From Dyadobacter sp. 676 (GTDB lineage: Bacteria > Bacteroidota > Bacteroidia > Cytophagales > Spirosomataceae), in NCBI RefSeq assembly GCF_040448675.1, contig NZ_CP159289.1, positions 7,220,079-7,284,078 on the forward strand: a DNA stretch of 64,000 nt. Direction: 5' to 3'. The notes under the pieces are model-generated. The model was not told where the DNA came from, did not search any database, and saw only the letters and a list, made by a program, of their open reading frames with translations. The position numbers and the translations under genes were made by a program. Position 1 is the first letter of the stretch; the number at the start of each line of letters is the position of its first letter. Shown here in pieces: positions 6,248 through 27,166 of the stretch.

Positions 6248-7594
6248 TTAAAAGTTGCCGGGCCGGAAAGTGGCAAAGAGCCTTTGCAATAAATTTCTAT
6301 CGGAAGTAATAATTTCTGCACTGCCCTTCATTCCATTCCTGAAAGGTAATTGATGGCCATGCTTGGTCACAAGCTTGTTGGGTAGTGTGACGTAGCCCCA
6401 AAAAGCGCTGTCGCTACCAGGAGTGATGGAAAGTTTTGCGAGGGATCCCTCAAGAATACCATATTCTCGAAATGGATAGCCGTCAAGTTTTATTAAGACC
6501 GTTTGCCCCTCGCGCAATTTACCTAGGTTTGGCTGAGGCAACTTGACTAATCCGAGGTACTTACCATGTAAAGGTTCTACCGTCATCAATTCTTGACCTG
6601 CATTTAGAAATTGACGCTCCTGCCATGGCTCTGAAAATGATATTTTCCCATCGACTGGTACAAATATTAAATATTTATTTTTCCAAGTTTGAATAGAACT
6701 TTTCAATGTCTGAATCGATTGATGAAAGCTTAGCTTCTGGCTTCTGACCGTAGCATCGAGTTCGAGAAGCTCTTTTTGTTTGAGTTTTCGGGCTGACTGG
6801 TTTTGTATCTTTGCTGACTTTAAGCTTTTGACCGGCATCTCCCGAGCTAATAATTTTGCTCTTTCCTTCATAAAATCTACACTAGAAATGACTTTATTAT
6901 CATGTAACTTAGATTGTATCCTAAATTCATCTGCCGCGAGCTCCAGATCTTGATTTTGTATTGTTAATTGCTCATTAATCAGCTCGTCCATCTGAGTTAG
7001 GTCATTTTGGTCCTCAATTAACAAATGCCGTTTTTGCGTGTAGTAGCCATCAGCTAAAACCGCCTGTAATTTTAAAAGCTCTTGATGAAAAGTTTGAAAG
7101 TCTAACTGAATTTCGCCCAAGGTGTCAAAAGTACTCAAAACCAAAACATTTAGCTTTTCCCAATCACCTGTCATAATGAGTCGATAAACGTCGTCGATCT
7201 GCTCCTCTAGTCTTAGAATTTGTTTGGGATTTCCAGTACTTTCCGAGTATCCAATAATCTGCCCCCGTTTTACTAACTCTCCATCCGCTACCGATAATTT
7301 TTCTAGCCTTCCTTCTGTTCTAACAACGACCCGTCTGGGAGCATTGGCTGAAGAGAGTAGAAAAGGTGCGGTAATTACATCAGGATAACGGATCCACCAC
7401 ATGGCGGTGAATAGTAATAATATTAATAAGATAAACATCGTATTGCCCCAAAGAATAAGCCAATGCGGGGGGCGTCCCAGGACAGCTTGCATCTTTACCG
7501 AATGTTCGGGCAACCTCTCAATATGATGTTCCTCAAGCTGCCTACTTTGCTCTTCCGATGATGTAAAATCTTTTGGATAAACGATACCATTCAC
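6248..7594 (-). CDS. HlyD-family membrane-fusion protein, cluster 1
   Basis: 448 residues. There is a cytoplasmic N-terminus, one membrane segment at about residues 45-68, a barrel-sandwich half (VVRTEGRLEKLSV near 90), a long helical hairpin at about 150-310, and the second barrel half VPVDGKISFSEPW near 318. This is the periplasmic adaptor that links a peptidase-containing ABC exporter to an outer-membrane channel. It starts 5 bases after the ABC gene and is the last gene of the operon. No TolC gene is in the window, so a housekeeping outer-membrane channel is presumably used. It is paralogous to the gene at 19652-20928. Confidence 0.9.
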   Translation of the reverse strand: MNGIVYPKDFTSSEEQSRQLEEHHIERLPEHSVKMQAVLGRPPHWLILWGNTMFILLILLLFTAMWWIRYPDVITAPFLLSSANAPRRVVVRTEGRLEKLSVADGELVKRGQIIGYSESTGNPKQILRLEEQIDDVYRLIMTGDWEKLNVLVLSTFDTLGEIQLDFQTFHQELLKLQAVLADGYYTQKRHLLIEDQNDLTQMDELINEQLTIQNQDLELAADEFRIQSKLHDNKVISSVDFMKERAKLLAREMPVKSLKSAKIQNQSARKLKQKELLELDATVRSQKLSFHQSIQTLKSSIQTWKNKYLIFVPVDGKISFSEPWQERQFLNAGQELMTVEPLHGKYLGLVKLPQPNLGKLREGQTVLIKLDGYPFREYGILEGSLAKLSITPGSDSAFWGYVTLPNKLVTKHGHQLPFRNGMKGSAEIITSDRNLLQRLFATFRPGNF

Positions 7595-7599
7595 AATTT

Positions 7600-9969
7600 C
7601 TATACAGCTAACTCTAATTGGTTACTTACTAATTCAAAATACTTACCCTGTCTTGCAACTAGCTCAGAATGGGTGCCGGTTTCAACAACCTGGCCTCCTT
7701 CAAGTACAATAATCTGGTCTGCATGCTTTACCGTACTTAAACGATGAGCGACCACAACAACTGTCCTTCCCTTAAAAAACTCCTCCAATTTCCTTACAAT
7801 CATCGCCTCATTGTTGGCATCGAGCGAATTGGTGGCCTCGTCAAACAACAATAAGCTTGGATCTTTATAAACCGACCGCGCAATCAAAATTCTCTGTCGT
7901 TGTCCTTGACTCAGCCCTTTGCCTGCTGCACCAATAATTGTAAAATATCCTTGTGGTTGCGACTCAATAAATTCATGGATATTGGCAAGCATCGCAGCTT
8001 GGCGCAACTTTGTCATATCAACGACTTCGTCGGCTACAGCAATATTTTTAGCAATCGTATCAGAAAAAATAAATCCATCTTGCATTACTACGCCGCACTG
8101 TCGACGCCACGCTCTATGCGAAATATTTTTAAGGTCGAGGGCCATCCTATCAAACCCAACATGATTGCTTAGAACTTCTCTTTCACTCGAACTAGTAAAT
8201 TTACCCTGATTTGATAAGACGATCGCGCCCTCATTCGGTTGATAAAATCGGAGCAAAAGCTTTAGCAGGGTGGTCTTACCGCTTCCACTTGTCCCTACAA
8301 TCGCAGTTGTTTTGCCATAAGGGATTTTTAAAGTAATATCTTTTAACACTGGCTCATTGCCAGCACCTGGGTAGGCAAAAGTGATATTTTCAAAATTGAT
8401 ATCCTGTGCAATCTCCCAAACCGTTCGACCAGGCAGGCTTGCGTTCTCTTCGTCAGGGAGCGAATGCACCTCATTAAGCCGTTCTAAACTCATGCGTGCA
8501 TCTTGCAAAGCTTGGATAAATCCAATCAACTGTTCAATCGGTGAATTGAATTGGCCTAGGATGTACTGAATGGACATCATCCCACCAATCGTTAGCTGAC
8601 CATCTAGAACAGCCTTTGCCGCAAGAAATGTGACTAGCACGTTCTTACCCTGATTGATAAACAAAGCGCCGGCCTGCTGAATTTGGGAAAGAGATAGTGA
8701 CCTGACGTTCCATTTGAACACGGTAGTTTGCACGTTCTCCCAGTCCCACCGTTTAGAAATCTCCGCTCCCGACAACTTAATGTCTTGCATTCCCTGAATC
8801 AGTTGAATTATCTGGCTCTGATTCTTCGATTGTACATCGAAACGTTGTGAATCAATTGTCCTCCGTTTACCTAAAAAAGCAGCAATCCAAAGAGAGTAAA
8901 TAACAGCCGAGATAATGGCCACGGAAAAAATTGATACGTGATAAAAGGCAAGAAGGACCCCAAATACCAGCAGGTTAACAAATGAAAAAAGAATATTGAG
9001 AGTTTGTCCCGTTAAGAAAGCTTCGATTCTGTGATGGTCGCCAATTCTTTGCATGATATCACCAAACTGCTTCACTTCAAAAAATGAAATCGGCAGGTTC
9101 ATCAGCTTCGCAAGAAATTCAGATAAAATAGCAAGGTTGATTCGAGTGCTAATATGCAACAAAATCCAACTTCGGAGAAAATCAACGGACGCAGTTCCGC
9201 AAACTAGCGTCATCTGTGCAACTAGGACCAAATAAATAAATGGAAGATTTTGTCCATTTATACCAACATCTACAACGGATTGAGCTAGGATAGGCATCAA
9301 CACCATCAATGCACTTCCAACCAACATGCCCAGTCCAAGCTGAACCAGTAGCTTTTTGTACTTCCAGAGGTATGAGACAAGTTGACTAAGCTGGAGGCCA
9401 TTAGCTTTTTCTCCCTCGTCGGCAAAAAAAGCTTGTGTGGGTTCCACGACCATAGCCAGTCCCTCTTTTCCTAGCTCATTTTCGCCCAACCAGCGCTTCT
9501 CGAACTCTTGAAACGTATACTTCATCAATCCTTGGGCTGGATCGGCGACGTGGAAGATAATTTTTTCGTCATTCAAATTTGACCCTTCGCCGCTTGGTCT
9601 GCCTGATCTTGGACTCTCGTCATTTCGATGACGCCTCATTAGATTGGGCCATGAACTACCTGATCTCGGTAACTTTTTAGACACCTTGTGTAGGACAACA
9701 AAGTGATTCTGCCCCCAATGCAACACACAAGGCAAGGGAACCTGCTCAATTAGGACTTTTATCGGAATGCGAACGCCTAAGGAATGAAGCCCGATCGATT
9801 CGGCGGCCTCTGAAATGCCCAACATTGAGACGCCTTCTCGACTAATTTGTGCCCTTTCCCGAAGTGTTTGTGCTGTGTAATGCTTTCCATAATGCTGTGC
9901 AATCATCCGGAGGCATGTTGGGCCACAATCCATCTGATCAAGCTGTTTAAAAAAAGGGAAAGATTTCAT
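7600..9969 (-). CDS. C39-peptidase ABC exporter (PCAT), cluster 1
   Basis: 789 residues from the ATG at 9969, chosen because the C39 domain starts there (QLDQMDCGPTC, catalytic Cys at residue 15). A longer frame upstream adds only unrelated residues. The catalytic His lies in LHWGQNHFVVLHKV and the Asp in VADPAQG. Between them is an insertion of about 40 residues (SSWPNLMRRHRNDESPRSG) coded in part by a DNA hairpin. A six-helix membrane domain follows (about 225-500). The ATPase has GTSGSGKTTLLK (Walker A), LSQGQRQRILIARS (signature), LLLFDEATNSLD (Walker B) and VAHRLST. It should cleave the GG-type leader of the upstream precursor and export the core peptide across the inner membrane. Confidence 0.93.
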   Translation of the reverse strand: MKSFPFFKQLDQMDCGPTCLRMIAQHYGKHYTAQTLRERAQISREGVSMLGISEAAESIGLHSLGVRIPIKVLIEQVPLPCVLHWGQNHFVVLHKVSKKLPRSGSSWPNLMRRHRNDESPRSGRPSGEGSNLNDEKIIFHVADPAQGLMKYTFQEFEKRWLGENELGKEGLAMVVEPTQAFFADEGEKANGLQLSQLVSYLWKYKKLLVQLGLGMLVGSALMVLMPILAQSVVDVGINGQNLPFIYLVLVAQMTLVCGTASVDFLRSWILLHISTRINLAILSEFLAKLMNLPISFFEVKQFGDIMQRIGDHHRIEAFLTGQTLNILFSFVNLLVFGVLLAFYHVSIFSVAIISAVIYSLWIAAFLGKRRTIDSQRFDVQSKNQSQIIQLIQGMQDIKLSGAEISKRWDWENVQTTVFKWNVRSLSLSQIQQAGALFINQGKNVLVTFLAAKAVLDGQLTIGGMMSIQYILGQFNSPIEQLIGFIQALQDARMSLERLNEVHSLPDEENASLPGRTVWEIAQDINFENITFAYPGAGNEPVLKDITLKIPYGKTTAIVGTSGSGKTTLLKLLLRFYQPNEGAIVLSNQGKFTSSSEREVLSNHVGFDRMALDLKNISHRAWRRQCGVVMQDGFIFSDTIAKNIAVADEVVDMTKLRQAAMLANIHEFIESQPQGYFTIIGAAGKGLSQGQRQRILIARSVYKDPSLLLFDEATNSLDANNEAMIVRKLEEFFKGRTVVVVAHRLSTVKHADQIIVLEGGQVVETGTHSELVARQGKYFELVSNQLELAV
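9618..9633. repeat. Short palindrome inside PCAT gene
   Basis: CGTCATTTCGATGACG is a 6-bp stem with a TTCG loop. It sits in the extra segment between the catalytic His and Asp strands of the C39 domain and resembles the CGTCATTTCGA-type dispersed palindromes known in Bacteroidota genomes. It appears to be inserted in frame. Confidence 0.5.
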
Positions 9970-10122
9970 TCTAAGTATCAAAATGAACAAACCTACTTCA
10001 AGCACCAGATGCAAACATAAGGTACTTTGTCGAAGTCGAAAGAAATTCTTGTAACCGAGCACTCATACGTCAGGCCGATACGAAAAAGACAACAAGTCTT
10101 CCAGAATATCCGCTTAGCCTGA

Positions 10123-11484
10123 TTAGAAACTGAGTCGATTAAAGATTTGATTAATTGCCGGATCTGACGGTCGCGGTGCATCAGAATCGACCACCTTGCC
10201 GCTTTTATCAATAATCATATATCTCGGGATCGACTTTACACCATATTTTCGGAGAATGGCGGATTGTATTCCTTTGGGCATAAGAAAGCTTGCGTCCTTA
10301 TTAAGGCCGATCTGATGCGCCGCCTTCTGCCAAGCAGCTGGATTTTTGTCGATTGAGATATAGACGAAGTTAATTCCCTTACTTGAATACTGATCACTGA
10401 GCCTAGCGGATGCAGGCATTTCTTCTCGGCAAGGCGCACACCAAGAGGCCCAGAAATCAACGTACGTTATCTTATTGCCAGTGGCTTTTCCGAAAGTCGA
10501 TTTTTTTCCGGACGAAGTGATGACATCGTCGCCTTGGATACTAATCGAGCTGATCCTGTCTATAGTGGACAAATATCTTGAATACTTTGAATCTTCATGA
10601 GTAGCCGCAACATCAGCGACTAACTGGTCGCGCTCTTTTTTAGTTAGCTTAAACATGGGGCCAGTATTTCTCGGACTATTCAATATACTTACAACTAAGT
10701 AGGTTCGCGTCTGACCGGAAAAATGCTTCGCCAAAATATCTCGTACAGCTGTCTCGGGATATAGTTTCCTAAGAGCGAACAAACAAGCGTTTGCCGAGTT
10801 CCTATACGAACTTAAAAAAAGGAATCGGTCTTCTTTGAGGCTTGTCTCCGCTTCTTGCGTCATGTCTTTGATATACTGGGCTGGAAACACCACATTTCCA
10901 AAACGTAGCTTTCGCTCGGTGACATTAAAGAGCTCCACAGCTTCATAAAATTGCACAAAGTGATTGTTAAGATGATTTTCCGCTGCGTATTGCTTTATAA
11001 AGCCATCGTAATCTCTATACTGACTTTCGAAAGCGTTGTTACGAGATTTGGGATTGGCAACATATTCCTTACCCAAGAAGGAACGTTGAAAAGACAATTG
11101 ATTAAATGACTCTGAATCAAACTTCTTAAAAAAGGCGAGTGGGAACATTAGCTCCCTGTCCCTTTCACTATTTTGTGAAGCTAACTTGACAAACTCATTT
11201 GATTTAGTAACTGTGATTCGGTCACCTTTCTTAAGGAAATAGTCTATTTTGAATCGATTATCTGTGACTTGAAGATCGGATGTGTCATCGAACCTGTTTA
11301 CTCCGCTTTTTAAAAATTCCAAGTTTCCGAAATCATCAATATAGTAAAGCCTATTTCCATCAGTCAATTTTACGTCGACTACAATAAAATTGTCCGAGTG
11401 TTGGAAATTGTTACACTTCCCGTTTGCAAGTCCAAATGGAGCAACGACTATCATTGCAACAACGATCTTCACCAATAAATGCAT
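10123..11484 (-). CDS. TlpA-like secreted thioredoxin, cluster 1
   Basis: 453 residues from the ATG at 11484, which gives a clean signal peptide (MHLLVKIVVAMIVVAPFGLA). A longer upstream frame would overlap the precursor gene and lacks a signal. The N-terminal 300 residues are a Bacteroidota-type helical region with no motif I can name. The C-terminal thioredoxin fold has the redox motif WASWCAPCREEMP near residue 345 and a cis-Pro in VKSIPRYMIID. It lies between precursor and exporter genes and probably oxidises or isomerises disulfides of the exported six-cysteine peptide in the periplasm. Confidence 0.85.
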   Translation of the reverse strand: MHLLVKIVVAMIVVAPFGLANGKCNNFQHSDNFIVVDVKLTDGNRLYYIDDFGNLEFLKSGVNRFDDTSDLQVTDNRFKIDYFLKKGDRITVTKSNEFVKLASQNSERDRELMFPLAFFKKFDSESFNQLSFQRSFLGKEYVANPKSRNNAFESQYRDYDGFIKQYAAENHLNNHFVQFYEAVELFNVTERKLRFGNVVFPAQYIKDMTQEAETSLKEDRFLFLSSYRNSANACLFALRKLYPETAVRDILAKHFSGQTRTYLVVSILNSPRNTGPMFKLTKKERDQLVADVAATHEDSKYSRYLSTIDRISSISIQGDDVITSSGKKSTFGKATGNKITYVDFWASWCAPCREEMPASARLSDQYSSKGINFVYISIDKNPAAWQKAAHQIGLNKDASFLMPKGIQSAILRKYGVKSIPRYMIIDKSGKVVDSDAPRPSDPAINQIFNRLSF

Positions 11485-11555
11485 AACTATTGTGCTTGCT
11501 AATTTGATTGATTTATGTAAATCAGACAAAGGGTTTCCCCTTTGCCTGTCACTGA

Positions 11556-11765
11556 TTAACAGCTTGTGCAGCACCAGTAGCCACGACCACCGGCTTCTCC
11601 ACATTGCTTAGCAAACTTCTTTGCTTTTTTCTTGGAAACAGTACCATAGCCAGAAATTGGCTCCGATCCTCCGTTTGAGTAACATGACGCGCCACATCCC
11701 GCGCCCAAGACATTTTTCATTTCTGCTCTTGTCAACGCGAAAGCGCTAAAAGACGATAAATTCAT
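11556..11765 (-). CDS. GG-leader, six-cysteine peptide precursor 1
   Basis: 69 residues. The leader MNLSSFSAFALTRAEMKNVLGAG matches the Bacteroidota natural-product leader pattern (L-[ST]-R-x-E-M-K followed by a small-residue cleavage site). The core starts about CGASCYSNGG and ends WCCTSC. It is rich in Gly, Ser and Lys and holds six Cys, enough for three disulfides. It is encoded 30 bases after the VKOR-thioredoxin gene and upstream of the TlpA and C39 exporter genes. Likely a secreted disulfide-rich bacteriocin or signalling peptide; its activity cannot be read from sequence. Confidence 0.85.
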   Translation of the reverse strand: MNLSSFSAFALTRAEMKNVLGAGCGASCYSNGGSEPISGYGTVSKKKAKKFAKQCGEAGGRGYWCCTSC

Positions 11766-11795
11766 GATTTAAATAGAATTAAGTGAAAAAATAAT

Positions 11796-13436
11796 TTATG
11801 TGATTTGATCAAATCCAGTAGGTTGTAGATATCGGCTCAGCTTTTCAATGTCCGAAACAGAATAGAATGGTGGAAGTTTAATATCGTTAAAGATCATAAA
11901 CGGAGTGTTGGTAATGCCGGCTAACTCACTCCATCTAACATGCAAGTCAAGCTGACTTATCCCCGTCTCGATCTCTGAAATATTCCTCCTGTTCTCACCT
12001 ATCCATTGGTCAGCCGTCATGTTTTGCTTCGCAAACCATCTAGCCAACCCTCCGTTAATCTCCTCGACTGGTAAGCTCAGTAAGTTTCGAGCAATCTTTC
12101 CGGATTCGTCTTGAATGTCATTGTACGCCGCAAAAAGAAAATTGACACGTAAATCGTCCATACGACCTTTAAGCTTGACTACTTGCTCATACATATCTGC
12201 GCATGAGCGGCACTTAGGTGTCAGCACCACAGTCAACACATTATCGGATTCAATGTCTCCAATGCCGCCAACCTTCATTCCATTAAAAAATGGCGGAATA
12301 GGCTCCCGCATTTCCATCAAGGATTTCAGGTAGTTTGAGGCGAATTTCATTTGCTCGAAAGAGCGACTAACACCAGCGAATTTTATTGACTTTACAAGAG
12401 TAGATTGGAACGCCAACCAAGAGGCAATAGATATTGAAAAACCGATTATAAAAGTGCCGACAACTTGATATGAAATGTGAGAAAAGACGGGAGCCGGGGT
12501 AGAGATCACAAATAATAGTTCAAGAAGCAGCAAAAGTTGTACAACGAGGCACATGACACACCAGCTTTTCCAAATAAATGCCTGGTAGGATACCGAATAA
12601 ATAGCATATGGAAACGCCAAAACACTCAGAGCGCCAATCCAAGGTAGGACTTCGCTGATAGAACCGGTCAGCATTGCAGTAACAATGGTCAACAAAGTAC
12701 CGAAAAAGTAAATCAGTCCAATTTCGGACCATTTGAAGACTCGAAAAAGCCGTGCTGATTTTGAACTCAGTAAGCTTCCGCAACTAGATTTACCGCTTAG
12801 ATTACATACCTTTCTAAGAACGGGGTTACTCAAATCAATCCCAGCCCACACTAGCATTGAGCAAACAATTGTACCACAAATTTTTGAAAACAATAGCGGT
12901 AGAACTAAACTCGGATCGACTCCTCCTATGACAGCGAGCGCCACAACGCACGATACGGCAACTAAGCCCAATACCATTGCAGTGGGTTTCCGCAAGGAAC
13001 TTAAAACTTCATTCCTTCTTTTCTCTGTATATTCCGGCTCGCCGGAATGTTCCGTTCGCTCCAATAACAAAGTGATTCCAGACCACTTTAGCCGGAAACT
13101 ATCAATGGCATCTACCTGTCTCCCAAGGGTTGTATCGATCCATTCCACTTTGTTCTCATCCGCGGATATAATCGTCGCAAGCACTCCACCTCCGACATTC
13201 ATAAAGCCGAGAGCTGGCATTGGGGCGGTTTGGAGTTGCTCTATTGATAAGCGCACGGAGATATTTTTGACATGTAAGTCTTGTAAAGTATCCGAAATGG
13301 ACGTTAATCTAGGAAAATCAGGATGATTCCATAACAGATTTTTGACGGTATGAGAGGTAGCGCGAATATCTGCACGCCGAATCAAGTCCAGGGATGCAAG
13401 CATCGCATTTTTTTCAGAGGCATTCGGATTCATCAA
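11796..13436 (-). CDS. C39-like/VKOR/thioredoxin fusion, cluster 1
   Basis: 546 residues. Residues about 10-120 resemble a C39 peptidase fold but lack the catalytic Cys. A VKOR membrane domain of five to six helices follows, with a paired-Cys loop (CNLSGKSSCGSLLSSK near 225) and the active-site CVMC near 300. A DsbA-like thioredoxin domain with CRSC near 405 forms the C-terminus. The protein should pass electrons from the thioredoxin domain to quinone, driving disulfide formation in periplasmic substrates. Its start overlaps the end of the glycosyltransferase gene by 23 bases and it precedes the precursor gene by 30, so all are one operon. Confidence 0.88.
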   Translation of the reverse strand: MMNPNASEKNAMLASLDLIRRADIRATSHTVKNLLWNHPDFPRLTSISDTLQDLHVKNISVRLSIEQLQTAPMPALGFMNVGGGVLATIISADENKVEWIDTTLGRQVDAIDSFRLKWSGITLLLERTEHSGEPEYTEKRRNEVLSSLRKPTAMVLGLVAVSCVVALAVIGGVDPSLVLPLLFSKICGTIVCSMLVWAGIDLSNPVLRKVCNLSGKSSCGSLLSSKSARLFRVFKWSEIGLIYFFGTLLTIVTAMLTGSISEVLPWIGALSVLAFPYAIYSVSYQAFIWKSWCVMCLVVQLLLLLELLFVISTPAPVFSHISYQVVGTFIIGFSISIASWLAFQSTLVKSIKFAGVSRSFEQMKFASNYLKSLMEMREPIPPFFNGMKVGGIGDIESDNVLTVVLTPKCRSCADMYEQVVKLKGRMDDLRVNFLFAAYNDIQDESGKIARNLLSLPVEEINGGLARWFAKQNMTADQWIGENRRNISEIETGISQLDLHVRWSELAGITNTPFMIFNDIKLPPFYSVSDIEKLSRYLQPTGFDQIT

Positions 13437-14784
13437 TGTATTTTTTTAACAGTTTCTTAATTTCCTTGGGGGAATACGTAGCCCTTAATTTCTTACTCAT
13501 CTCGTCAATATTTTTCTTATATACGCCGTTTCCGAGAAGTCGATTAATTTTGTCATATATATCACTCGCCCTTTCATGCCTGAATTCTCCTTTTAGGCCA
13601 ATTCCATGATGTACAACTTTGAATGCATTTCCATTTTGGTCATACCGCATGTCCAAAGGATAAACGAGCATTGGTGTTCCGCAAAAAATAGACTCTTTGA
13701 CAGATCCCAATCCCCCGTGCGTCACGAATAAGTTAGCTACTTTTAGAACCTCCAACTGTGCCACACTTTTGAAAAAGTAAAATGGCTTTTTAATTGTCAT
13801 ATTATGCACTATTGTATCAATAACAAGTTGATTAACAGAGAATATTACAACCACATCATCAATTCTCTCTAGCGCAGAAATCAGTTTCTCTAAAAAATCA
13901 AAAAGTGCGCGATCTGAACCCTCATAAAATGTACCAAAACTGCAATAAATCAACTTTCTCCCATTCAAACCCTGAACAATATTTCTGAAAACACTGGAAA
14001 ATAGTTCATCCTCTTCTGGGCTCTGACGCTGATCATTGACCGATAATCCTAAATAAACTTGGTGTTCTCGACGAATTGACGGCGATATCTCCAGCTCAAG
14101 CGGAGCTAAAATAAATTCTCTAAAATTATTGAATATTAATGCCTTAGTACAGTCTTTCGATATCGGATGGCGAGTTGAAAATTCGTTATGTCTTAGTATG
14201 TGCTTAAACCGGTATTCTCTCGCAAGTCTCAAAATCAGCGACTTCGGCTGAACAACCATGGCTTTAATCAAATTTACAAATCTAGTATCTTTACCTGCGC
14301 CAGCAGGGACAGTCTTTGGATAAAAATCTTGGTCAACATTTGGAAAGCCTGGTGTTCTCAGCGTCGACAGCATGGGATTAATTAAAATGTACTGGGCTTG
14401 AACGCCTAACGAATTTAGTACCAATAGGTCAGTACTGTTGAATATATCAATAAAAATTAGAGTTGGCGAAATCTTTGAAATTACTTCACTTAATTCTTTT
14501 TGCCTATGTTTGAGGACTTTATCTCCCAAAACGCACTTTAATGTCGACCACCACCCAGATTTGCCTAGTGTTGAAGCAACAAAGGAATCTTCCATACCTA
14601 CTCCGACTCGGTAGTCAGTTGTAAGTAATGCCTTATAACCATGCGACGCTACTATTGATTTCAAGACCTCATTCGACACTGAGAAGTAGACATCAAACTC
14701 CTCTGACAAAACATCACAAAAGCTAAAAAGAGGGAAAACATGGCTTTTGATCGATGCGGGAAGAAAAAGTGCTACTTTTTGCAT
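13414..14784 (-). CDS. GT1-type (UGT/MGT) glycosyltransferase, cluster 1
   Basis: 456 residues from the ATG at 14784 (MQKVALFLPASIKSHVFPLF, the usual GT-B N-terminal strand). A longer frame from 14964 adds residues unlike the family. The C-terminal nucleotide-sugar site reads FVTHGGLGSVKESIFCGTPM near residue 350, followed by YPLDMRYDQ, the UDP-glycosyltransferase/macrolide glycosyltransferase signature. GT1 enzymes put a sugar on small molecules or peptides. Overlap with the downstream VKOR gene makes it the first gene of the peptide operon, suggesting that the peptide or an associated compound is glycosylated. The acceptor is unknown. Confidence 0.85.
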   Translation of the reverse strand: MQKVALFLPASIKSHVFPLFSFCDVLSEEFDVYFSVSNEVLKSIVASHGYKALLTTDYRVGVGMEDSFVASTLGKSGWWSTLKCVLGDKVLKHRQKELSEVISKISPTLIFIDIFNSTDLLVLNSLGVQAQYILINPMLSTLRTPGFPNVDQDFYPKTVPAGAGKDTRFVNLIKAMVVQPKSLILRLAREYRFKHILRHNEFSTRHPISKDCTKALIFNNFREFILAPLELEISPSIRREHQVYLGLSVNDQRQSPEEDELFSSVFRNIVQGLNGRKLIYCSFGTFYEGSDRALFDFLEKLISALERIDDVVVIFSVNQLVIDTIVHNMTIKKPFYFFKSVAQLEVLKVANLFVTHGGLGSVKESIFCGTPMLVYPLDMRYDQNGNAFKVVHHGIGLKGEFRHERASDIYDKINRLLGNGVYKKNIDEMSKKLRATYSPKEIKKLLKKYIDESECL

Positions 14785-16726: not shown

Positions 16727-16800
16727 GGATATGTTTGACGGAGGCGATTTTGACCAGGGTTTCTCAAACATCAATGTTTTTCTAACCTTAAACTGTGAGG

Positions 16801-18808: not shown

Positions 18809-19648
18809 ATGGTTTCTGGTTTGGTGAAATGTAATACTGTGGTAATCGTTCCCTACTTTGGAGAGCTGCCCTGGTATTTTTGGTACTTTATTAAAAGTTG
18901 TGAAAATAATCCTGATTTTCACTTCTTGTTGATCGGCGACAGTTTTGACGCTGTCGATTGCCCGGCTAATGTTATGATTGTTCCAATGAATCTGAATGAG
19001 TTGGCAGAATTGATATGTACAAAACTTGGCTTTCCCGTTCAACTAAGTAAGGCTTACAAATTATGTGATTTTAAGCCTGCATATGGCCTGATCTTTTCGG
19101 ATTTTATAGCGGATTATCAATTTTGGGCACAATCCGATATTGATGTGATTTTTGGAAAATTGTCATCTTTTTTAACCCCGGATTTCCTGAGCCAGTATGA
19201 CTACGTAAGTGTAAGGCACGATTATACGTCCGGGTGCTTCTCAGTTTTCAGAAACCTAGATTGGGTAAACCGCCTGTTTATGCTCAGTAAGGATTATGAA
19301 ATGGTTTATCAGAGCCCAGGGAATTATTGTTTTGATCAGTGTAATTATACTATGGACTATTTGACCAATGGGGGTGACCTGTTTAAAAAATTTACTGAAA
19401 TTGAGAGCTTTACGCATGTAGTCCGCAAGGAGCAGGCAGGAGAGCGTATCAGAGCCCATTTCGATTTTATTCTGATCGAGGGGCTTCCGGGCAGGATCAA
19501 GTATGATAGGGGTAGACTTATCTACCAGAACCGGTTTGAAGCGATTCTTTATCACCTCTATCATTTCAAGCGGGTTTATTTTCCTGCCAGGAAACCTGCT
19601 ATTATACCAAAGCGTTTTAGGATAAGTGTTAGCAGAATCTACTGCTGA
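18809..19648 (+). CDS. Glycosyltransferase-like protein (DUF6625 type)
   Basis: 279 residues. The N-terminal VVIVPYFGELPWYFWYFI and the metal-site-like FWAQSDIDVIFG near residue 110 are typical of a Bacteroidota family related to GT-A glycosyltransferases and often placed beside capsule or peptide export genes. It converges on the cluster 2 HlyD gene (stops 3 bases apart), so it is not part of that operon but is a near neighbour. Its product may modify the cluster 2 peptide or cell-surface sugar. Family name recalled from pattern only. Confidence 0.65.
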   Translation: MVSGLVKCNTVVIVPYFGELPWYFWYFIKSCENNPDFHFLLIGDSFDAVDCPANVMIVPMNLNELAELICTKLGFPVQLSKAYKLCDFKPAYGLIFSDFIADYQFWAQSDIDVIFGKLSSFLTPDFLSQYDYVSVRHDYTSGCFSVFRNLDWVNRLFMLSKDYEMVYQSPGNYCFDQCNYTMDYLTNGGDLFKKFTEIESFTHVVRKEQAGERIRAHFDFILIEGLPGRIKYDRGRLIYQNRFEAILYHLYHFKRVYFPARKPAIIPKRFRISVSRIYC

Positions 19649-19651: not shown

Positions 19652-20928
19652 CTATTTCCCGGATTGGAAGATCTCGATCAGGCGCCAGATCAGTTTTTTG
19701 TCGTCGGTAATTATTTCGGCCGTACCGCGAAGACCGCTTCGGTATTTAAGCTTTTTGCCATACGTGGTATTTAGTTTAGAAGGCAGATCGACAAATCCCC
19801 AGTAGATATCTTGTTTGTCGGCAGTGGCAGAGATGCTCCCCAATTTCCCTTGTAACAACCCATACTCACGATATTGAAAACCATCCAGGCGAACGAAAAC
19901 GCGTTGACCTTCCTGCAACTTGCCCTGATTGAATTGTTTGATTTGAATGATCCCTTGGTAATTTTCTGTTTTTGGTTCAATATCAAACAACTGATCACCC
20001 GAAGCGACCTGCATTTGCTCTTGCAAAGGTATCTTATATGAGAGTGTCCCACTCACCGGGGCGGTTATCAGATATTTGATTTTCCATGCCCGCAGACTGG
20101 TCGTTAATGTTCTGAGTGACTTTTTGACCTTATTCTTGTAGATGAGCACAGTATTATCGAGCGAAATCATTTCGGCTTTTTTGCTGGTCTGCCTGACAGA
20201 ATTTTCAATAAATGCTGATTTGGTTATTGCCAGAGGCAATTCTTTCTCAACCAATTTTGCCTTTTCTCTGCCATACTCCAATTTCGAGATGGTTTTCTGC
20301 TCAAATAATTTCTTTTGAATTTCGTGGTCGTCCCTGGCCAGATCCAACTGTCGTTCGGTAAGCTGCATCTGTTGCCGAAGGTTGTCTTCAAGGTTTGCAA
20401 GAGCATCGATATCGTTTTGCAGGAGTCGCCTCCTTTGTAAATAAAAGTTCTTACCCAGTGAGGACTGAAGCTCCTCCAGCTGGGAGAAAAAGTCTTGGAA
20501 CGGGGTCTCCAATTCACCGAGTTGGCTAAATTGGTGCAAATCAAGCTTATCAAGTTCATCCCACTTGTCGTGATGGACCCATTGCTCGGCCTGAGCGGTG
20601 AAGGTTTCAAGTGCAAGCACTTGTTTGTAGTCCGCCGGACTCTCCAACATAGCAACGATTCCGCCTTTTGCGACGACATCTCCGTTTAAATTGTTGATTT
20701 TGATAAGTTTTCCATTAACCGTCGCTACCATGCTTCTGGGAGGATCTTTCGTAGTCAAAATAAAGCTTGCTGTCACTACATCCGGATATTGAATCCAGCA
20801 TGTGAGTGCAATGCAACAGGTGAAAAAAATAGGAAAAGAGCCGATCCATAGCTGATAAGCCAACCCGGAGGCCTGGATATAATCTGCTGGACTTCCTCGC
20901 AGTGGTCTTCGAAAACACTGTCGTTCAT
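19652..20928 (-). pseudogene. HlyD-family membrane-fusion protein, cluster 2, with N-terminal frameshift
   Basis: The frame from 20860 to 19652 encodes the barrel-sandwich, long helical hairpin and C-terminal parts of an adaptor paralogous to 6248-7594. The true N-terminus (MNDSVFEDH, then SRPPGWLISYGS) lies in another frame starting at the ATG 20928. The frames meet in an A-run of 7 (20823-20829 on the plus strand). One extra base there restores an RPP...YPDV segment of 33 residues, the same length as in the cluster 1 protein. Without it, translation would need a TTG inside the membrane segment. The break may be a sequencing error, slippage-corrected, or real loss. Confidence 0.8.
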
Positions 20929-20966: not shown

Positions 20967-23333
20967 TCAGTTATTTGGCAGGTCAAGCTGTGCGCTGACC
21001 AAAGCATGGTATTTTCCCCTTTTTTTTATCAATTCGTCGTGCTTGCCGATTTCCTGAATTTTTCCCCTCTCAATAACAACGATTTGATCGGCATGCCTGA
21101 CCGTGCTAAGGCGATGGGCAACAATGACAACGGTTCTGCTTTCGAAAAATTTATTCAGATTTCTCACAATGGTAGCCTCGTTTGTTGCATCGAGCGCGTT
21201 GGTCGCTTCGTCAAAGAGAATTATTCGAGGATCCTTGTAGACCGCTCTTGCGATCAGGATCCGTTGTTTTTGCCCCTGGCTGAGTGGGTTACCTTCTGCG
21301 CCGATCTTGGTTTGATAACCCAGCGGCAGAGCTTCGATGAAGTCATGAATGTTTGCCGTGTATGCAGCCTGATATAATTTCTGTGGGTTAATTCGCTGTT
21401 CGCCGACAGCAATATTTCGCGCGATCGTGTCCGAGAAAATAAAGCCGTCCTGCATAACCACACCACATTGTCCACGCCATTCGCTGTGAGATATAGCTGC
21501 AAAACTCAATCCTTCGCCCGGTGCATCTTCTTTATTTGTGTCTTGCGCGGGAGGACAAAGTCTGATGCTGCCCGACTTGGGTTGATAAAATTTAAGCAGC
21601 AGCTTTAGAAGCGTTGTTTTCCCGCTTCCGCTGGCTCCGACAAGTGCGGTGATTTTGCCATGTGGAATTTTCAGGTCGATGTTATTGAGAACAGGATCTG
21701 AATCCTGACCTGGATAGGAGAATGTCAATCCATCGAAACAGATATCGAACCGGGAACCCCAAACTCGTCGCAGCTCAGCATCGTGCGGTTCTTCATCGCT
21801 CAGGTGCTGAACTTCGTTGAGCCTTTCCATGCTCATCCGGGCATCCTGCCAGCCCTGCAGGAATGAAACAAGCTGTTCTATAGGGGCATTGAATTGACCC
21901 ATGATGTATTGTACTGAAACCATCTGACCAACCGTGAGCGTGCCGTCGATGACAGAAGAAACCGTAAGGTAGGTTACCAGAATATTCTTGCTGTTATTGA
22001 TAAACAGCGCGCCGGCTTGTTGAAACTGGGCGACTGAAAGGCTCCTTACACCCCAATGAAACAGTTGGGCCTGGGTCCTTTCCCAAGCCCAACGTTTAAC
22101 CCGTTCGGCGCGAGCGAGTTTAATGTCCTGCATCCCTTGTATCAACTGAATAACTTCGCTTTGGTTTTGTGACTGTATTTCAAAGCGTTTCATGTCGATG
22201 CTGCGTCTTCTGCGAAAGAAGAATATGACCCAGAGGCAATATGCAACAGAAAAAAGAGCGGTGAGCGTGAACACCTGAATTTGATAATAGGCCAAAAGCG
22301 CCCCGAAAATTGCCAGGTTCGCCATAGATAATGCACTGCTGATAGCCTGCCCGGTAAGAAACGACTCAATTCGCTGATGGTCCCCGATTCGCTGCATGAT
22401 GTCACCAAACATCTTTGTATCAAAGAAGGAAATGGGCAGCTTCATGAGCTTTGCCAAAAAGTCTGATAAGATCGTCAGGTTAATCCGGGAACTGATATGT
22501 AGAAGAATCCAGCTTCTGAGGAAATCAACGGATGTGATACTGGTGAGCAAAATTGCCTGTGCTACCAATACAAGGTTGACAAAAGATAAGTCTTGAGTAC
22601 CAATTCCGATGTCTACTACTGCCTGCGCCAAGAGCGGCAGCAGGATCGAAAGAAAGCTTCCGATAAACATTGTCAGAACCAGCTGTGCGATTAATTTTCT
22701 ATATTTTCCCAAGTAGGAAATGAGCCGCGCGGTATTGGTGCCATGGGGTGTTTCCCCGCTGAGCGTCGGGAAATTTTCATCGGGCTCTAAAAGAAGGGAA
22801 ATACCGTCACGGCCAGTTGCGCTCCTTGCTGATAGCCACTTTTGTTCGAATTCTTCGGATGAGTATGAGACCAGACCCATTGCCGGGTCAGAGATAAAAA
22901 AACGGTACTGCCTTCGGGTGTTTGTATTTGGTAAATGAGGGTGCTGCTCATGCCGCCGGGCGTCTGTTGCGTGTGAGACGCCACTTTTTCTGCCTCCCCG
23001 GATATTTCTCAAAAGATCGCGGCCTAGCCAGGGCCAATCGCCATTGATTTTGTACAAGACTACGTAATGATTTTGCTCCCAATGCAGTATGCAGGGGAGC
23101 TGAGCCTGTTCAATGAGCTGAAACAGGTTTAATCTGACTCCGGCCGTGCGAAACCCAATCTGTTCGGCTGTGTCGGCTAAACTCATCATCGATACCCCCG
23201 TCTTGCCGATGTCAGTTTTGTCACGGATTGTTTGTGCGGAATAGTGGCGGCCATAATACTTAGCCACAATGCGCAGACAGGTCGGACCGCAGTCCATTTG
23301 GTCTAGCTGGAAGTAATGGGGGAAGTTTCGCAT
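20967..23333 (-). CDS. C39-peptidase ABC exporter (PCAT), cluster 2
   Basis: 788 residues from the ATG at 23333, chosen as the start of the C39 domain (FQLDQMDCGPTC). The catalytic His is in LHWEQNHYVVLYKI and the Asp in ISDPAMG. Here too an extra basic segment of about 45 residues (DLLRNIRGGRKSGVSHATDA) separates them. Six membrane helices follow. The ATPase carries GASGSGKTTLLK, LSQGQKQRILIARA, IILFDEATNALD and VAHRLST. It is closely similar to the cluster 1 exporter throughout. It should cleave and export precursor 2, encoded just upstream. Confidence 0.93.
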   Translation of the reverse strand: MRNFPHYFQLDQMDCGPTCLRIVAKYYGRHYSAQTIRDKTDIGKTGVSMMSLADTAEQIGFRTAGVRLNLFQLIEQAQLPCILHWEQNHYVVLYKINGDWPWLGRDLLRNIRGGRKSGVSHATDARRHEQHPHLPNTNTRRQYRFFISDPAMGLVSYSSEEFEQKWLSARSATGRDGISLLLEPDENFPTLSGETPHGTNTARLISYLGKYRKLIAQLVLTMFIGSFLSILLPLLAQAVVDIGIGTQDLSFVNLVLVAQAILLTSITSVDFLRSWILLHISSRINLTILSDFLAKLMKLPISFFDTKMFGDIMQRIGDHQRIESFLTGQAISSALSMANLAIFGALLAYYQIQVFTLTALFSVAYCLWVIFFFRRRRSIDMKRFEIQSQNQSEVIQLIQGMQDIKLARAERVKRWAWERTQAQLFHWGVRSLSVAQFQQAGALFINNSKNILVTYLTVSSVIDGTLTVGQMVSVQYIMGQFNAPIEQLVSFLQGWQDARMSMERLNEVQHLSDEEPHDAELRRVWGSRFDICFDGLTFSYPGQDSDPVLNNIDLKIPHGKITALVGASGSGKTTLLKLLLKFYQPKSGSIRLCPPAQDTNKEDAPGEGLSFAAISHSEWRGQCGVVMQDGFIFSDTIARNIAVGEQRINPQKLYQAAYTANIHDFIEALPLGYQTKIGAEGNPLSQGQKQRILIARAVYKDPRIILFDEATNALDATNEATIVRNLNKFFESRTVVIVAHRLSTVRHADQIVVIERGKIQEIGKHDELIKKRGKYHALVSAQLDLPNN

Positions 23334-23453
23334 TGCGTTGCTCTGCCTGTCATGAAGACCAATTAAGAATTGGCGATTTCGAAAAAACTTGCAACCGGAT
23401 CCATGTTCCGGCTGCAAGGGGCCGACCGTTATGACGATCTGTATTGACGGTAA

Positions 23454-23648
23454 TTATCCTCCGCAGCTACCTATGCCGATACCTACGGCATTGCAGCGGC
23501 ATCCGCCTCCTACTGGCGTATAGCATTCACCGGTATTTGTTCCGATAGTGCAGCTTCCCGAGCAGCTTCCTTCAGAGTCGCCGGCCATAATTTTTTTCAT
23601 TTCGTTTCTGCTCAGACGCTTGACGTTCTCCAGACTAAGTTTTTTCAT
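23454..23648 (-). CDS. GG-leader, six-cysteine peptide precursor 2
   Basis: 64 residues. The leader MKKLSLENVKRLSRNEMKKI ends in a small-residue site (MAG), the Bacteroidota GG-type leader. The core begins about DSEGSCSGSC and ends GIGSCGG. It is Gly- and Cys-rich (six Cys) with little charge. Leader and Cys count match precursor 1, but core sequences are unrelated, so the two operons probably make different disulfide-bonded peptides. Encoded between the VKOR-thioredoxin gene and the C39 exporter gene. Confidence 0.85.
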   Translation of the reverse strand: MKKLSLENVKRLSRNEMKKIMAGDSEGSCSGSCTIGTNTGECYTPVGGGCRCNAVGIGIGSCGG

Positions 23649-23722
23649 TTGGTTGAAATATTGAGTTGTTTGCCTACTCTGTTACAGGTTTTTGGGCAAC
23701 CACCTTTCCTTGCAAGAAAATC

Positions 23723-25333
23723 TTATAGGATATGTTCAATTTCTTCGACTTTGTAGTTTTCTGGAAGACGGTAGCCATTTATGAAAATTGTCGGTGTATG
23801 CGTGACGTTTGCAAGTATGCACCACGTACTCATCGAGTCAATCTCGGTGTCGGCAGTGGCCAAATCACCCTTGACGGGGAATTTCGCTGAAAGTCCCTCA
23901 AAGCTCTTTTCTTCTGTGCTGTACCAATAGTGAAGTGCATGGTTCATAGCCGAAGTACCCAGAGCGTTCCTTATCAGAATAAAATATTTCACTACCCGGG
24001 CTCCCATGCTCGTTGCGGTGTTCTGGGATATATAAATGATCTTCATTTTAACATTTTGGTTTCGCTCGATTATTTTCTCGAGCACCGAATGGGATTTGCT
24101 ACAGGGGCTGCAATAGGGGTTACAGATTTTGATGATTGTATTGGTGGCCGAAGGATTACCCACATCAATTCCAATGTTTTCCCAGCCAGCAGGGACGGTA
24201 TCCTGATTGTGCAGCAAGGCGTCAAAGACCTCGGGATTATATTGCAAGCGCCGGTAAGCCGAACGGAAAAGGCGATGTTCGTGCACTTTCTCGGACAGGG
24301 GCTTGAACAGAATTAGCATTGCGGCCGGAAGCAGAAAACAGGCCGTTGCTATTATATATTCAACCGGATCTTCCGGCAAGGCAAAATAAACGTAATCTAA
24401 TGCAGACAGCCAGTAGGCCAGTTCGCAAAAAAGCGCTCCTTGAATCGCAAGGCATAATACGCACCATTGTTTGACAACTCTCCATTGGTAAAGCAGGCTG
24501 AAAGGGATGTAAAGCGCGGCCAGCACGGAGAATAGGCTTGCAAAAGAGAACCTGGTTGATGGTGCGATATTGTCGTTGCACAATATCAGTGCAGTCGCAG
24601 CAAAGTAGATGGAGCCAACTTCGGCCCAGGAAATACCCAGAATGTTGGAGCCTTTGCTGCTTAGGACTGCGTCGCAGTTAGTTTTTCCATTCAAAGCGCA
24701 TATGTTTTTAACAAAGCTGTTATTCCTGTCGACCTCAAAGGCCAATAGCAGAACAGATACAGAAAGGCCGAATGCCTTTACAAACAGGGGAAACCAGCTT
24801 TCAGAGAATAGCCTTGACAATTTGCCAATGTCTACCCATGCAGCCAGCGAACCGACTAGCATTAGCACACAAAGCGTCTTTAGAAGCAATGAGTTGCGTT
24901 CACTCGTGCGTTTTTCTTTGAACGAGACGTCTCCTCCTTTTTCGGGATCAAATATTTTCCAGACAACGTCGCGGTATCTGGTTACGAACTCTTCATAGGG
25001 CAGATAGGCTGGTTTGCGTCCTTTGTGATAAAAGCCAACTTTGCTTTCGGTTATCGATTCGACGACTACAAAATCCAGTCCGATCTCACTTGTTTTGAAA
25101 TACGCTATAAATGGCGTTTGCCCGGCCAGCTCCATGAAGTTGCTTTTGGGGATTTTGATAGCGGCATTCTCGACGCGGAATTTGTGGAAAACGTCACTTA
25201 ATGACAGTAGACTTGGGAAAGTCGGGTTTTCTTCAAGCGCATTAGCCAGCGTATTTCGGGAGATTTTGACATTCATCAGCCTTGCGTACGTAAAAGCGAC
25301 TGACTTTAGCTCGGTATTAAAGGTGTAAGCCAT
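23723..25333 (-). CDS. C39-like/VKOR/thioredoxin fusion, cluster 2
   Basis: 536 residues with the same order as the cluster 1 protein: an N-terminal C39-like domain without catalytic Cys (1-125), VKOR membrane helices with CALNGKTNCDAVLSSK near 210 and CVLC near 288, then a thioredoxin domain with NPYCSPCSKSH near 400. It should oxidise cysteines of exported peptides and recycle through quinone. It starts 126 bases after the TlpA gene and ends 74 before the precursor gene. Confidence 0.88.
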   Translation of the reverse strand: MAYTFNTELKSVAFTYARLMNVKISRNTLANALEENPTFPSLLSLSDVFHKFRVENAAIKIPKSNFMELAGQTPFIAYFKTSEIGLDFVVVESITESKVGFYHKGRKPAYLPYEEFVTRYRDVVWKIFDPEKGGDVSFKEKRTSERNSLLLKTLCVLMLVGSLAAWVDIGKLSRLFSESWFPLFVKAFGLSVSVLLLAFEVDRNNSFVKNICALNGKTNCDAVLSSKGSNILGISWAEVGSIYFAATALILCNDNIAPSTRFSFASLFSVLAALYIPFSLLYQWRVVKQWCVLCLAIQGALFCELAYWLSALDYVYFALPEDPVEYIIATACFLLPAAMLILFKPLSEKVHEHRLFRSAYRRLQYNPEVFDALLHNQDTVPAGWENIGIDVGNPSATNTIIKICNPYCSPCSKSHSVLEKIIERNQNVKMKIIYISQNTATSMGARVVKYFILIRNALGTSAMNHALHYWYSTEEKSFEGLSAKFPVKGDLATADTEIDSMSTWCILANVTHTPTIFINGYRLPENYKVEEIEHIL

Positions 25334-25459: not shown

Positions 25460-26578
25460 CTATTTTACAGCGCCAAAGTTCTCTGCAAGGGTTCTTTCCA
25501 GAAGACGAAGGTTGGGGTCGGCCTGATCGGCCCGGGAATAAGAAATAGTTCCTTTTTTGTCCACGAGGTATACCTGTGGAATTGCAAGCACACCGTATTT
25601 TTTCAGTACTTCTATGTCATTGTATATATGTAAGCCCGGCAGATCGTACTTTTGCAGAGCAGCGCGATACTTCTTGGGGTCCGCGTCCAATGAGACAAAT
25701 ATAAACTCCAGCGAATCGGCAGGATAGCTGCTGCGTAGTTCCTTTATTTTCGGAAATTCCTCAATACACGGCGCACACCACGTTGCCCAGAAGGTAATGA
25801 GCACATTTTTCCCCTTGAAATTTTTGAGATCAATGGTTTGATTGTGGATATCAGTAGCGACAAACTCGACGGCCTTTTTGCCTTTTGTCAGTGAGCGACC
25901 GGTTAATCTGAGCTGGATTTCTTTTCCTTCCTTGCTGGATTTGCGCTGCTGGTCAAACTTTTGATCAAAAACCGCATTCAGATCACCGATATCATGATCA
26001 AGATAAACCAGCTCTCTTCGGAACAGCCAGAAAGCATAGTAGGATTCGGGTTTGTTTCTGACGTAATCCACTTTCTTGGCGGCTAATTTCCGGTTAAGGC
26101 TTTCGAAAACAGCGATCAGGGAATCTTGTCGGAACCACGATTTGTTGTTGGCCTTGAATGAGTCTATTGCGGCTGTTTCAGCGGCCGTAAATTTGTTGAT
26201 TGCCACCGCATCCGCCGACTTGTCGACATCAATGGTATTTTTTAGCATGCCTGCTTTGATGCTGGAGCCGTCCTTTTCAAATTTAATGACCGCGGGCTTT
26301 TGGTTTACCCAAAACCGGAAAGAACTTCCCTGATAGCCTACCATTATGGTGGTGAATTTGGCAACCGAGCTTCCGGATAAGTGCAATATGTTTGATTGAA
26401 GGGTGTCTTTTACCGGTATGTTGTCGTTGGTGCCATCATCGACAAAGACTTTAAGCTGCTTTGTCTTTAGTGAATCAGGAAACTGCAAATCTACCGAATA
26501 CTGATGTTGGCCGGCTGCCACCGAGCATATTAGCACGGCCGAAAGAAATCCGTTGAGAAATGAGCGAAGCGCTATCAT
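25460..26578 (-). CDS. TlpA-like secreted thioredoxin with DUF4369-type N-terminus, cluster 2
   Basis: 372 residues with an N-terminal signal peptide (FLNGFLSAVLICSVAAGQ). Residues about 25-220 are the beta-rich plus helical region seen ahead of Bacteroidota thioredoxins. The C-terminal redoxin domain has WATWCAPCIEEFP near 270 and the cis-Pro in LAIPQVYLVD. It is the first gene of the cluster 2 operon, whereas its cluster 1 counterpart lies after the precursor gene. A disulfide oxidoreductase for the exported peptide is the likely role. Confidence 0.85.
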   Translation of the reverse strand: MIALRSFLNGFLSAVLICSVAAGQHQYSVDLQFPDSLKTKQLKVFVDDGTNDNIPVKDTLQSNILHLSGSSVAKFTTIMVGYQGSSFRFWVNQKPAVIKFEKDGSSIKAGMLKNTIDVDKSADAVAINKFTAAETAAIDSFKANNKSWFRQDSLIAVFESLNRKLAAKKVDYVRNKPESYYAFWLFRRELVYLDHDIGDLNAVFDQKFDQQRKSSKEGKEIQLRLTGRSLTKGKKAVEFVATDIHNQTIDLKNFKGKNVLITFWATWCAPCIEEFPKIKELRSSYPADSLEFIFVSLDADPKKYRAALQKYDLPGLHIYNDIEVLKKYGVLAIPQVYLVDKKGTISYSRADQADPNLRLLERTLAENFGAVK

Positions 26579-26670: not shown

Positions 26671-26674
26671 ATTT

Positions 26675-27166
26675 CTACAGGACCGGAGATTCATGGCTGG
26701 GCTGAAATCTGATCACCGGAGCCTTAAGCTCTATTTTTTGGGCACTGTCCTTTTTCTGGCCATTCGAAAAGGTGTTGAAACTGCCGCCACCCATATTTGC
26801 CGGCGTTACAGTCTGAATTGTAGACTGTGTCCGGTAGTTCAGAAATTTACTACTCTGTTCAGAGGCCCTGACAGAATTGTTGGACTGTTTCAATACAGGT
26901 TTGACAATTGACCGGGATGGCAAAATCTGAGACTGATCCAATTGCGTGGGTTTGGCTGTTTCATGCATCCGGCTGCTATCGCGGGACGGCTTACCTGGTG
27001 CCGGTAAATTATTGGTATCTTTCGAATATCCCTGACTTTTTGCCGGTCCCAAGTTCGGGATATTACAGTCGCACGTCATGGCTGGTTCTGCGGCATTGAT
27101 TTCTTGCGGGTAGATCGATGCCGTCGAAATAACCAAAACAAGTAAGACACTCAGATGTTGTCGCAT
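26675..27166 (-). CDS. Secreted protein of unknown function
   Basis: 163 residues from the ATG at 27166, which gives a signal peptide (MRQHLSVLLVLVISTASIYP). The mature part has a CDCN segment near residue 35, then low-complexity Ser/Gln/Asn-rich sequence with a PANMGGGSFNTFSNG patch and no membrane segment. No family is recognised. It is on the same strand just upstream of the cluster 2 operon, but the 11-base G-run lies between, so co-transcription is uncertain. Confidence 0.6.
   Translation of the reverse strand: MRQHLSVLLVLVISTASIYPQEINAAEPAMTCDCNIPNLGPAKSQGYSKDTNNLPAPGKPSRDSSRMHETAKPTQLDQSQILPSRSIVKPVLKQSNNSVRASEQSSKFLNYRTQSTIQTVTPANMGGGSFNTFSNGQKKDSAQKIELKAPVIRFQPSHESPVL

Follow-up and report, generated by a model that had tools for sequence, protein, structure and literature searches.

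The final 64 kb of the 7.28-Mb single-contig genome of Dyadobacter sp. 676, which we analyzed as one window, carries two operons on its minus strand whose products are likely to be VKOR-oxidized, C39-exported peptides with three disulfide bonds. We consider this the best overall explanation of the region. Gene content, motifs, Cys parity and RNA covariation are read from sequence, and from these we infer the biochemical steps, the target of the products and the effect of the RNA. An earlier note on this DNA had listed for each operon a GG-type precursor with six core Cys, a C39-ABC exporter, a HlyD protein, a VKOR-thioredoxin fusion and a TlpA-like protein; all were found among the ORFs and by Pfam. 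Glycosyltransferase genes, the RNA and the altered frame of HlyD2, all treated below, come in addition to what it described. The different placement of the TlpA gene that it described is borne out by the gene order, which is glycosyltransferase (UDPGT), VKOR1, precursor 1, TlpA, C39-ABC and HlyD in cluster 1 and TlpA, VKOR2, DUF805b RNA, precursor 2, C39-ABC and HlyD in cluster 2. A genome-wide search found two VKOR genes, both of them in the window. The features are as follows (a slash marks the approximate end of a leader).

6248..7594, minus strand: HlyD-type adaptor of cluster 1 (Pfam HlyD_3, 50.2 bits)
7600..10062, minus strand: C39-peptidase ABC exporter of cluster 1 (Pfam C39 99.8 bits, ABC_tran 93.7 bits)
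10123..11604, minus strand: TlpA-like thioredoxin protein of cluster 1 (Pfam Thioredoxin_8, 64.8 bits); the real start is probably further inside the ORF
11556..11765, minus strand: precursor 1, 69 aa, six core Cys, WCCxSC end, leader ending at about ...VLGA/G
11796..13436, minus strand: VKOR1, a C39-like, VKOR and thioredoxin fusion (Pfam VKOR 45.0 bits; C39 16.5 bits, under the 22-bit cut-off)
13414..14964, minus strand: GT-B glycosyltransferase of cluster 1, UDPGT family (Pfam UDPGT 40.5 bits; its solved relatives are glycosyltransferases); the real start probably lies further inside the ORF
15027..15914, plus strand: GT2-type glycosyltransferase, divergent from cluster 1, membership uncertain (Pfam Glycos_transf_2, 38.3 bits)
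18809..19648, plus strand: DUF6625 protein with a DxD-like motif, convergent with HlyD2, membership uncertain (Pfam DUF6625, 192.7 bits)
19652..20863, minus strand: HlyD-type adaptor of cluster 2, HlyD2 (Pfam HlyD_3, 40.8 bits), with its N-terminus in another frame upstream
20967..23417, minus strand: C39-peptidase ABC exporter of cluster 2 (Pfam C39 97.0 bits, ABC_tran 103.5 bits)
23454..23648, minus strand: precursor 2, 64 aa, six core Cys, leader ending at about ...KIMAG/D
23671..23706, minus strand: DUF805b RNA of cluster 2 (RF02914, 42.1 bits; gathering score 35.6)
23723..25333, minus strand: VKOR2, a C39-like, VKOR and thioredoxin fusion (Pfam VKOR 47.3 bits, C39 25.9 bits, Thioredoxin_4 29.8 bits)
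25460..26578, minus strand: TlpA-like thioredoxin protein of cluster 2 (Pfam Redoxin, 68.3 bits)

The 3′ end of the UDPGT gene overlaps the start of VKOR1 by ∼20 nt. Directly upstream of the second TlpA gene lies a 236-aa ORF (26675-27385, minus strand) with no Pfam match, which could be a member of cluster 2. A phage-integrase-family gene (16795-18114, plus strand) separates the two clusters, and to their left is an IS66 transposase gene (3788-5296, minus strand), an arrangement consistent with a mobile region. No immunity gene was recognized among the ORFs scanned. Lanthionine or radical-SAM chemistry at the Cys residues was rejected after a Pfam scan of 18 window ORFs, none of which matched a family of either kind; a LanC-like gene occurs within 6 kb of VKOR in 4 of 113 VKOR loci, none of them in the window.

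Both exporters retain the Cys, His and Asp motifs of the C39 domain, residues that here and in the VKOR N-terminus we take to be the catalytic ones. The HlyD2 ORF lacks an in-frame N-terminus, the expected residues being found in another frame (20776-20928, minus strand), with the frame change likeliest at a T7 tract (20823-20829). Either the gene is broken or the assembly contains an indel; the out-of-frame start counts against the explanation preferred here.

Both precursors have a GG-type leader with conserved hydrophobic spacing and exactly six Cys, all located after the leader. A leader regex combined with an ATG rule matched only precursors 1 and 2 in the 64 kb, although by itself this is no independent test since the regex was composed after inspecting these two leaders. 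The same regex matched 131 ORFs in 78 related loci versus 3 in 84 mononucleotide-shuffled loci (1.42 Mb). By its boundary the leaders are 22 and 23 aa long, with predicted cut sites at GA/G in precursor 1 and AG/D in precursor 2, where we would expect cleavage to occur. The precursors score only 14.4 and 18.4 bits with the NCBIfam model leader_Chryseo (NF047798, cut-off 23.5 bits). A search of 5.8 billion proteins, which requires shared 5-residue words and may thus miss distant relatives, returned nothing for precursor 2 except the query itself and a single homologue of precursor 1 (P0002, 78% identical) that keeps all six Cys. Homologues without conserved Cys, which would speak against the products as first proposed, were therefore not encountered.

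The WCCxSC end of precursor 1 recurs in peptides of other VKOR loci. We aligned precursor 1 and P0002 with ten such peptides, five of them chosen for a WCCx(S/N)C end (L043, which has only CC, was dropped) and five picked by eye for the same end. In these 12 sequences C24, C65, C66 and C69 are invariant; the invariance of the last three is partly due to the choice of peptides with that end, whereas C24, like K17, was not chosen for. Identity of precursor 1 to the ten peptides is 30–41% overall, leader included. This alignment suggests that precursor 1 is part of a loosely defined family of peptides that share four Cys, to which it adds two of its own. The earlier description of the core sequences as unrelated stands for the two precursors compared with each other, but precursor 1 does have look-alikes in other loci.

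The VKOR proteins combine three parts, and both of those in the window exceed the Pfam cut-off for VKOR. Solved peptide exporters (4ry2 and relatives) are matched by residues 16–173 of the VKOR profile over their C39 domain, the linker and the first helix; the middle matches solved VKORs, and the C-terminus matches DsbA-like proteins. The VKOR Cys and the thioredoxin CxxC (C212, C220, C291, C294, C408 and C411) are invariant in 37 of 37 VKOR proteins. At the N-terminus, for which a C39-like fold is predicted from the profile matches, no match covers the stretch around the catalytic Cys, and VKOR2 has Asp in place of the His. The alignment and the profile match thus bear out the proposal that this domain is an inactive C39-like one, as the catalytic residues are missing. 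Solved VKOR-thioredoxin proteins (PDB 4nv2, 3kp9) likewise have the VKOR bundle, two pairs of Cys and a CxxC-bearing thioredoxin domain; the fusions described here add the C39-like domain and one more hydrophobic helix at the N-terminus, and their genes are bound to peptide export operons. The exporters have the same architecture and C39 motifs as C39-ABC exporters of double-glycine peptides (PDB 4ry2, 7t54), whereas here a second, dead C39 copy is fused to the oxidase. The averaged VKOR hydropathy is fragmented and was read as six helices. In solved VKORs the active site faces outside the cytoplasm. Six helices in this canonical orientation would leave the C39-like domain on the periplasmic side, apart from the uncleaved leader, unless the first helix does not cross the membrane. 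Recognition of the leader by this domain is a guess, for which the hydropathy-based topology poses a difficulty.

The association of VKOR fusions with such peptides extends well beyond the window. We surveyed 97 entries, comprising the window, 78 loci obtained by scanning named genomes with the VKOR alignment, and 18 loci from the genus. A GG-leader ORF lies less than 800 nt downstream on the same strand for 74 of 105 VKOR hits, and the order VKOR-peptide-TlpA-ABC-HlyD is repeated in many loci. The other 31 hits have no regex-matching GG peptide within 800 nt downstream; at least one of these, L014, does have precursors that the regex misses. Among 142 distinct GG-leader peptides, the window pair included, the number of core Cys is even and non-zero in 129, odd in 11 and zero in 2. 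The full tally is 0 Cys in 2 peptides, 1 in 3, 4 in 12, 5 in 4, 6 in 85, 7 in 2, 8 in 24, 9 in 2, 10 in 6 and 12 in 2, so that six, the number seen in both window precursors, is the most frequent one.

As a control for parity we fetched 34 loci via the exporter, namely the 14 best class-wide loci outside our own and 20 of the 21 next-best loci in the family that were not already included. VKOR was found in 1 of the 14 class-wide and 16 of the 20 family exporter loci. The 17 loci without detected VKOR contain 14 candidate peptides, 11 of them with Cys, of which 6 have an even and 5 an odd number (Fisher p 0.002 for VKOR loci against control). The support for paired Cys in VKOR-linked peptides is strong but not conclusive, as the control is small (11 Cys-containing peptides, detected by a less strict regex) and kinship among the peptides is not corrected for, so that a binomial p for the parity exaggerates the evidence. 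Together with the invariant VKOR and thioredoxin Cys, the parity supports the original proposal that the peptides are cleaved by C39 and exported, and that they have paired Cys and oxidoreductases dedicated to them.

We propose that each operon would make one small peptide. The exporter from the same operon would use its C39 domain to remove the GG-type leader of this peptide during passage through the inner membrane, and HlyD would serve as the adaptor towards the outer membrane. Outside the cytoplasm the six Cys would be joined into three disulfides with the VKOR-thioredoxin protein as the oxidant, and the TlpA-like protein may act as a reductant or shuffler of incorrect bonds. The C39-like domain of VKOR would probably be a docking module for the leader, the exporter or both. 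In cluster 2 the expression of precursor 2 would probably be tuned by the DUF805b pseudoknot RNA that precedes it in the 5′ leader.

This RNA, which scores above the gathering threshold of Rfam RF02914 (42.1 versus 35.6 bits), lies between VKOR2 and precursor 2, 22 nt before the start codon of the latter. In cluster 1 neither the Rfam model nor a model of our own alignment found a match. DUF805b matches occur in 90 of 121 genomes of the family, above the cut-off in 50. We inspected 33 sites, 28 of which lie 16–31 nt before an ATG ORF of at least 25 aa; for two others the distance is 7 and 74 nt, and the remaining three precede no such ORF. By eye, 9 of the 33 ORFs after DUF805b encode GG-leader peptides and the remainder are varied. 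After viewing 32 of the sites (one duplicate was dropped) we proposed a pseudoknot helix between the loop and the 3′ end. Its pair 11–39 is GC in 10 sites, CG in 8, GU in 5, UA in 3, AU in 2 and unpaired in 4, and the covariation score of the whole structure was reached by none of 500 shuffles. The outer pairs of the proposed helix, 9–41 and 10–40, are mostly unpaired and are not supported. Compared with RF02914 as described, the element is tied here to GG-leader peptide genes and has a covariation-supported pseudoknot helix that is missing from the tool's structure line.

With a model built from the 32-site alignment we searched the window and 130 loci, obtaining 21 matches with E up to 0.5. 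We examined 18 of the 20 matches outside the window (those with E of 0.33 and 0.34 were omitted); 15 of them, in 10 loci, lie 16–102 nt before a GG-leader-type ORF and the other three precede other ORFs. When the Rfam cut-off is applied to those 10 loci, 11 matches in 8 loci pass while L009 and L075 fail. Within the VKOR2 clade an above-cut-off element lies between VKOR and precursor in 5 of 13 readable loci (the window, L010, L011, L013 and L014), or in 7 of 13 if the weaker matches in L009 and L075 are included.

Many VKOR loci also contain genes for sugar transfer. When the ORFs of 115 entries were clustered, several glycosyltransferase groups emerged after the core genes and a response-regulator group. 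A UDPGT gene lies within 1 kb of VKOR in 20 loci, on the same strand in all 20, upstream in 14 and overlapping in 8. Any of ten glycosyltransferase or glycosyltransferase-like families is present within 6 kb in 59 of 113 VKOR loci as compared with 2 of 17 exporter loci without VKOR. Members of these families number 62 at less than 3 kb from VKOR (652,200 bp) versus 8 at more than 6 kb (620,500 bp), a density ratio that is descriptive only since the families were picked from genes of the same loci. Among the ten, DUF6625 and DUF6734 are glycosyltransferase-like by inference only, the GT25 representative is under the Pfam cut-off, and L047_10 has no Pfam match. In Pfam scans of sampled ORFs, UDPGT was matched by 13 of 110 (from 347) within 1.5 kb of core genes, and it is absent from the 25 families listed, down to those with one member, for 110 of the 262 ORFs more than 4 kb away. 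In 9 other loci a DUF6625 relative is encoded no more than 6 kb from VKOR, and D110 and D112 are invariant in 10 DUF6625 sequences; a comparison of DUF6625 with PDB sequences gave no match.

Judged by gene content, sugar transfer is part of many VKOR loci, and the products could be glycosylated as well as disulfide-bonded; the GT-B enzyme (UDPGT) or another glycosyltransferase would in that case modify the precursor while it is still in the cytoplasm, ahead of export. The peptides would then be a Bacteroidota counterpart of the glycocins. Glycocins such as sublancin combine C39 export and disulfides with dedicated thioredoxin-like enzymes and a glycosyltransferase of GT2 type. In contrast, the loci from the family of Dyadobacter mostly have GT-B (UDPGT) rather than GT2 enzymes, and no modified product is known. 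The proximity, the uniform strand and the scarcity near VKOR-less exporters all favor glycosylation, which would extend the explanation preferred above and is compatible with it. However, the families vary by locus and include the less certain members listed above, the operon strand of the window carries only UDPGT while the DUF6625 and GT2 genes are on the opposite strand, and ordinary glycosyltransferases are present in the far sample too (Glycos_transf_1 in 2 of 110 ORFs more than 4 kb away). The enzymes could also serve the cell surface or be unrelated neighbors. We therefore regard glycosylation of the products as possible, though on balance doubtful.

A different use of the peptides, as short-range pheromones sensed by adjacent LytTR-type regulators, was considered given that 25 of 113 loci have a LytTR-type response regulator no more than 6 kb from VKOR, and 18 have one within 1 kb. 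Neither window cluster has a member of this group, however, and by general expectation the wide variation in product sequence fits weapons better, as does the presence of two or more GG peptides in 35 of 97 entries. A signaling role is thus unlikely in our view; the LytTR-type neighbors suggest that the loci are regulated, perhaps by quorum-type control, and the peptides are most likely bacteriocin-like weapons.

The claim that the machinery was duplicated while the product diverged does not hold. Although the two clusters share a gene set, stand side by side and have exporters that are 54% identical, an origin by duplication within this genome followed by divergence is very improbable, and a recent local one is rejected on VKOR identity and on both trees, as the VKORs are only 22% identical and belong to different clades and exporter 1 joins exporters of genus-mates (up to 72% identity) before exporter 2. 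The HlyD proteins are 39% identical, and the TlpA-like proteins are alignable only over ∼100 residues of the thioredoxin part. In a FastTree phylogeny of 117 VKORs, the genomes that group with VKOR1 all come from its own family (sets of 18 and 20 rows with support 100 and 99, respectively); the exact placement of VKOR1 is less sure, as the program flagged its amino-acid composition. A different set of 19 rows (support 100) holds VKOR2 together with Emticicia, Chitinophaga and others. Among the 75 rows of the exporter tree, exporter 1 clusters with genus-mates and a single Bacteroides MAG in a set of 6 (support 98) that excludes exporter 2; each exporter is more closely related to exporters from other genomes than to its counterpart in the window. 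A VKOR relative is present in 17 of 48 genomes of the genus, Dyadobacter sp. 676 included. The other genus VKORs are at most 30% identical to VKOR2 and 27–32% identical to VKOR1 over the full length, with one broken piece at 38% over 152 residues; within the tree alignment VKOR1 reaches up to 37% (L146). This patchy and divergent presence in the genus fits horizontal movement of the VKOR loci.

The nearest described relatives we found are the bacteroidetocins, by which C39-exported disulfide peptides with a thiol oxidoreductase are already known in the phylum. The accessible part of their description reports a GG leader of 15–16 aa and paired Cys, with four Cys in both founding members and two or more in the others. 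The region has four genes, for a five-helix TM protein, the peptide, a thiol oxidoreductase and a C39-type ABC exporter, and activity was attenuated when the oxidoreductase was deleted (Coyne et al. 2019, PMC6671954). Bacteroidota hosts, GG leader, paired Cys, C39-ABC and thiol oxidoreductase are thus common traits as far as that part goes. The leaders here are longer (22–23 aa), and HlyD, TlpA and the VKOR fusion are present here but not among the four genes given for the bacteroidetocin region, with neither HlyD nor a VKOR fusion named in the accessible part of the account. Membership among the bacteroidetocins is rejected on these two features, leader length and gene set. Hoylesella oralis has a bacteroidetocin-like layout (L130, 3879-6707, plus strand) with a 15-aa-leader peptide, a separate 185-aa thioredoxin-like protein and a 709-aa C39-ABC exporter, and also a VKOR-C39 locus (L071) with a WCCxSC peptide. 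By analogy with the bacteroidetocins, whose toxin activity was weakened by loss of the oxidoreductase gene, the products described here are likely to be used in competition between bacteria.

No description of the VKOR-C39 fusion machinery, of its glycosyltransferase link or of its RNA link was found in the open-licence literature, which misses most subscription papers; VKOR, thioredoxin and disulfide are unmentioned in the accessible main text of PMC10352776, as are vitamin K and thioredoxin in the accessible part of PMC13289728. The system appears to be widespread yet little described in Bacteroidota, with loci that often have sugar-transfer genes and one branch that has a folded RNA before the peptide gene. 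Tentatively, and with more doubt than confidence, one may go further and see in it a large Bacteroidota class of disulfide-rich, often glycosylated exported peptides made by one modular machine, in which a leader-reading oxidase formed by a dead C39 domain fused to VKOR-thioredoxin, a proofreading TlpA-like protein and exchangeable glycosyltransferases would join a C39-ABC/HlyD exporter, and in which, in one branch, a DUF805b pseudoknot would control the precursor and other GG-leader genes in the same bacterial family.

The link between DUF805b and GG-leader genes makes a candidate regulon for a little-studied RNA family, and the VKOR-C39 fusion is a marker for locating such peptides. A dead C39 domain carried by an oxidase would represent an unusual coupling of disulfide formation to export. 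Taken together, loose "bacteriocin-like" genes become a defined system with testable chemistry, in a phylum that is poor in characterized peptides.
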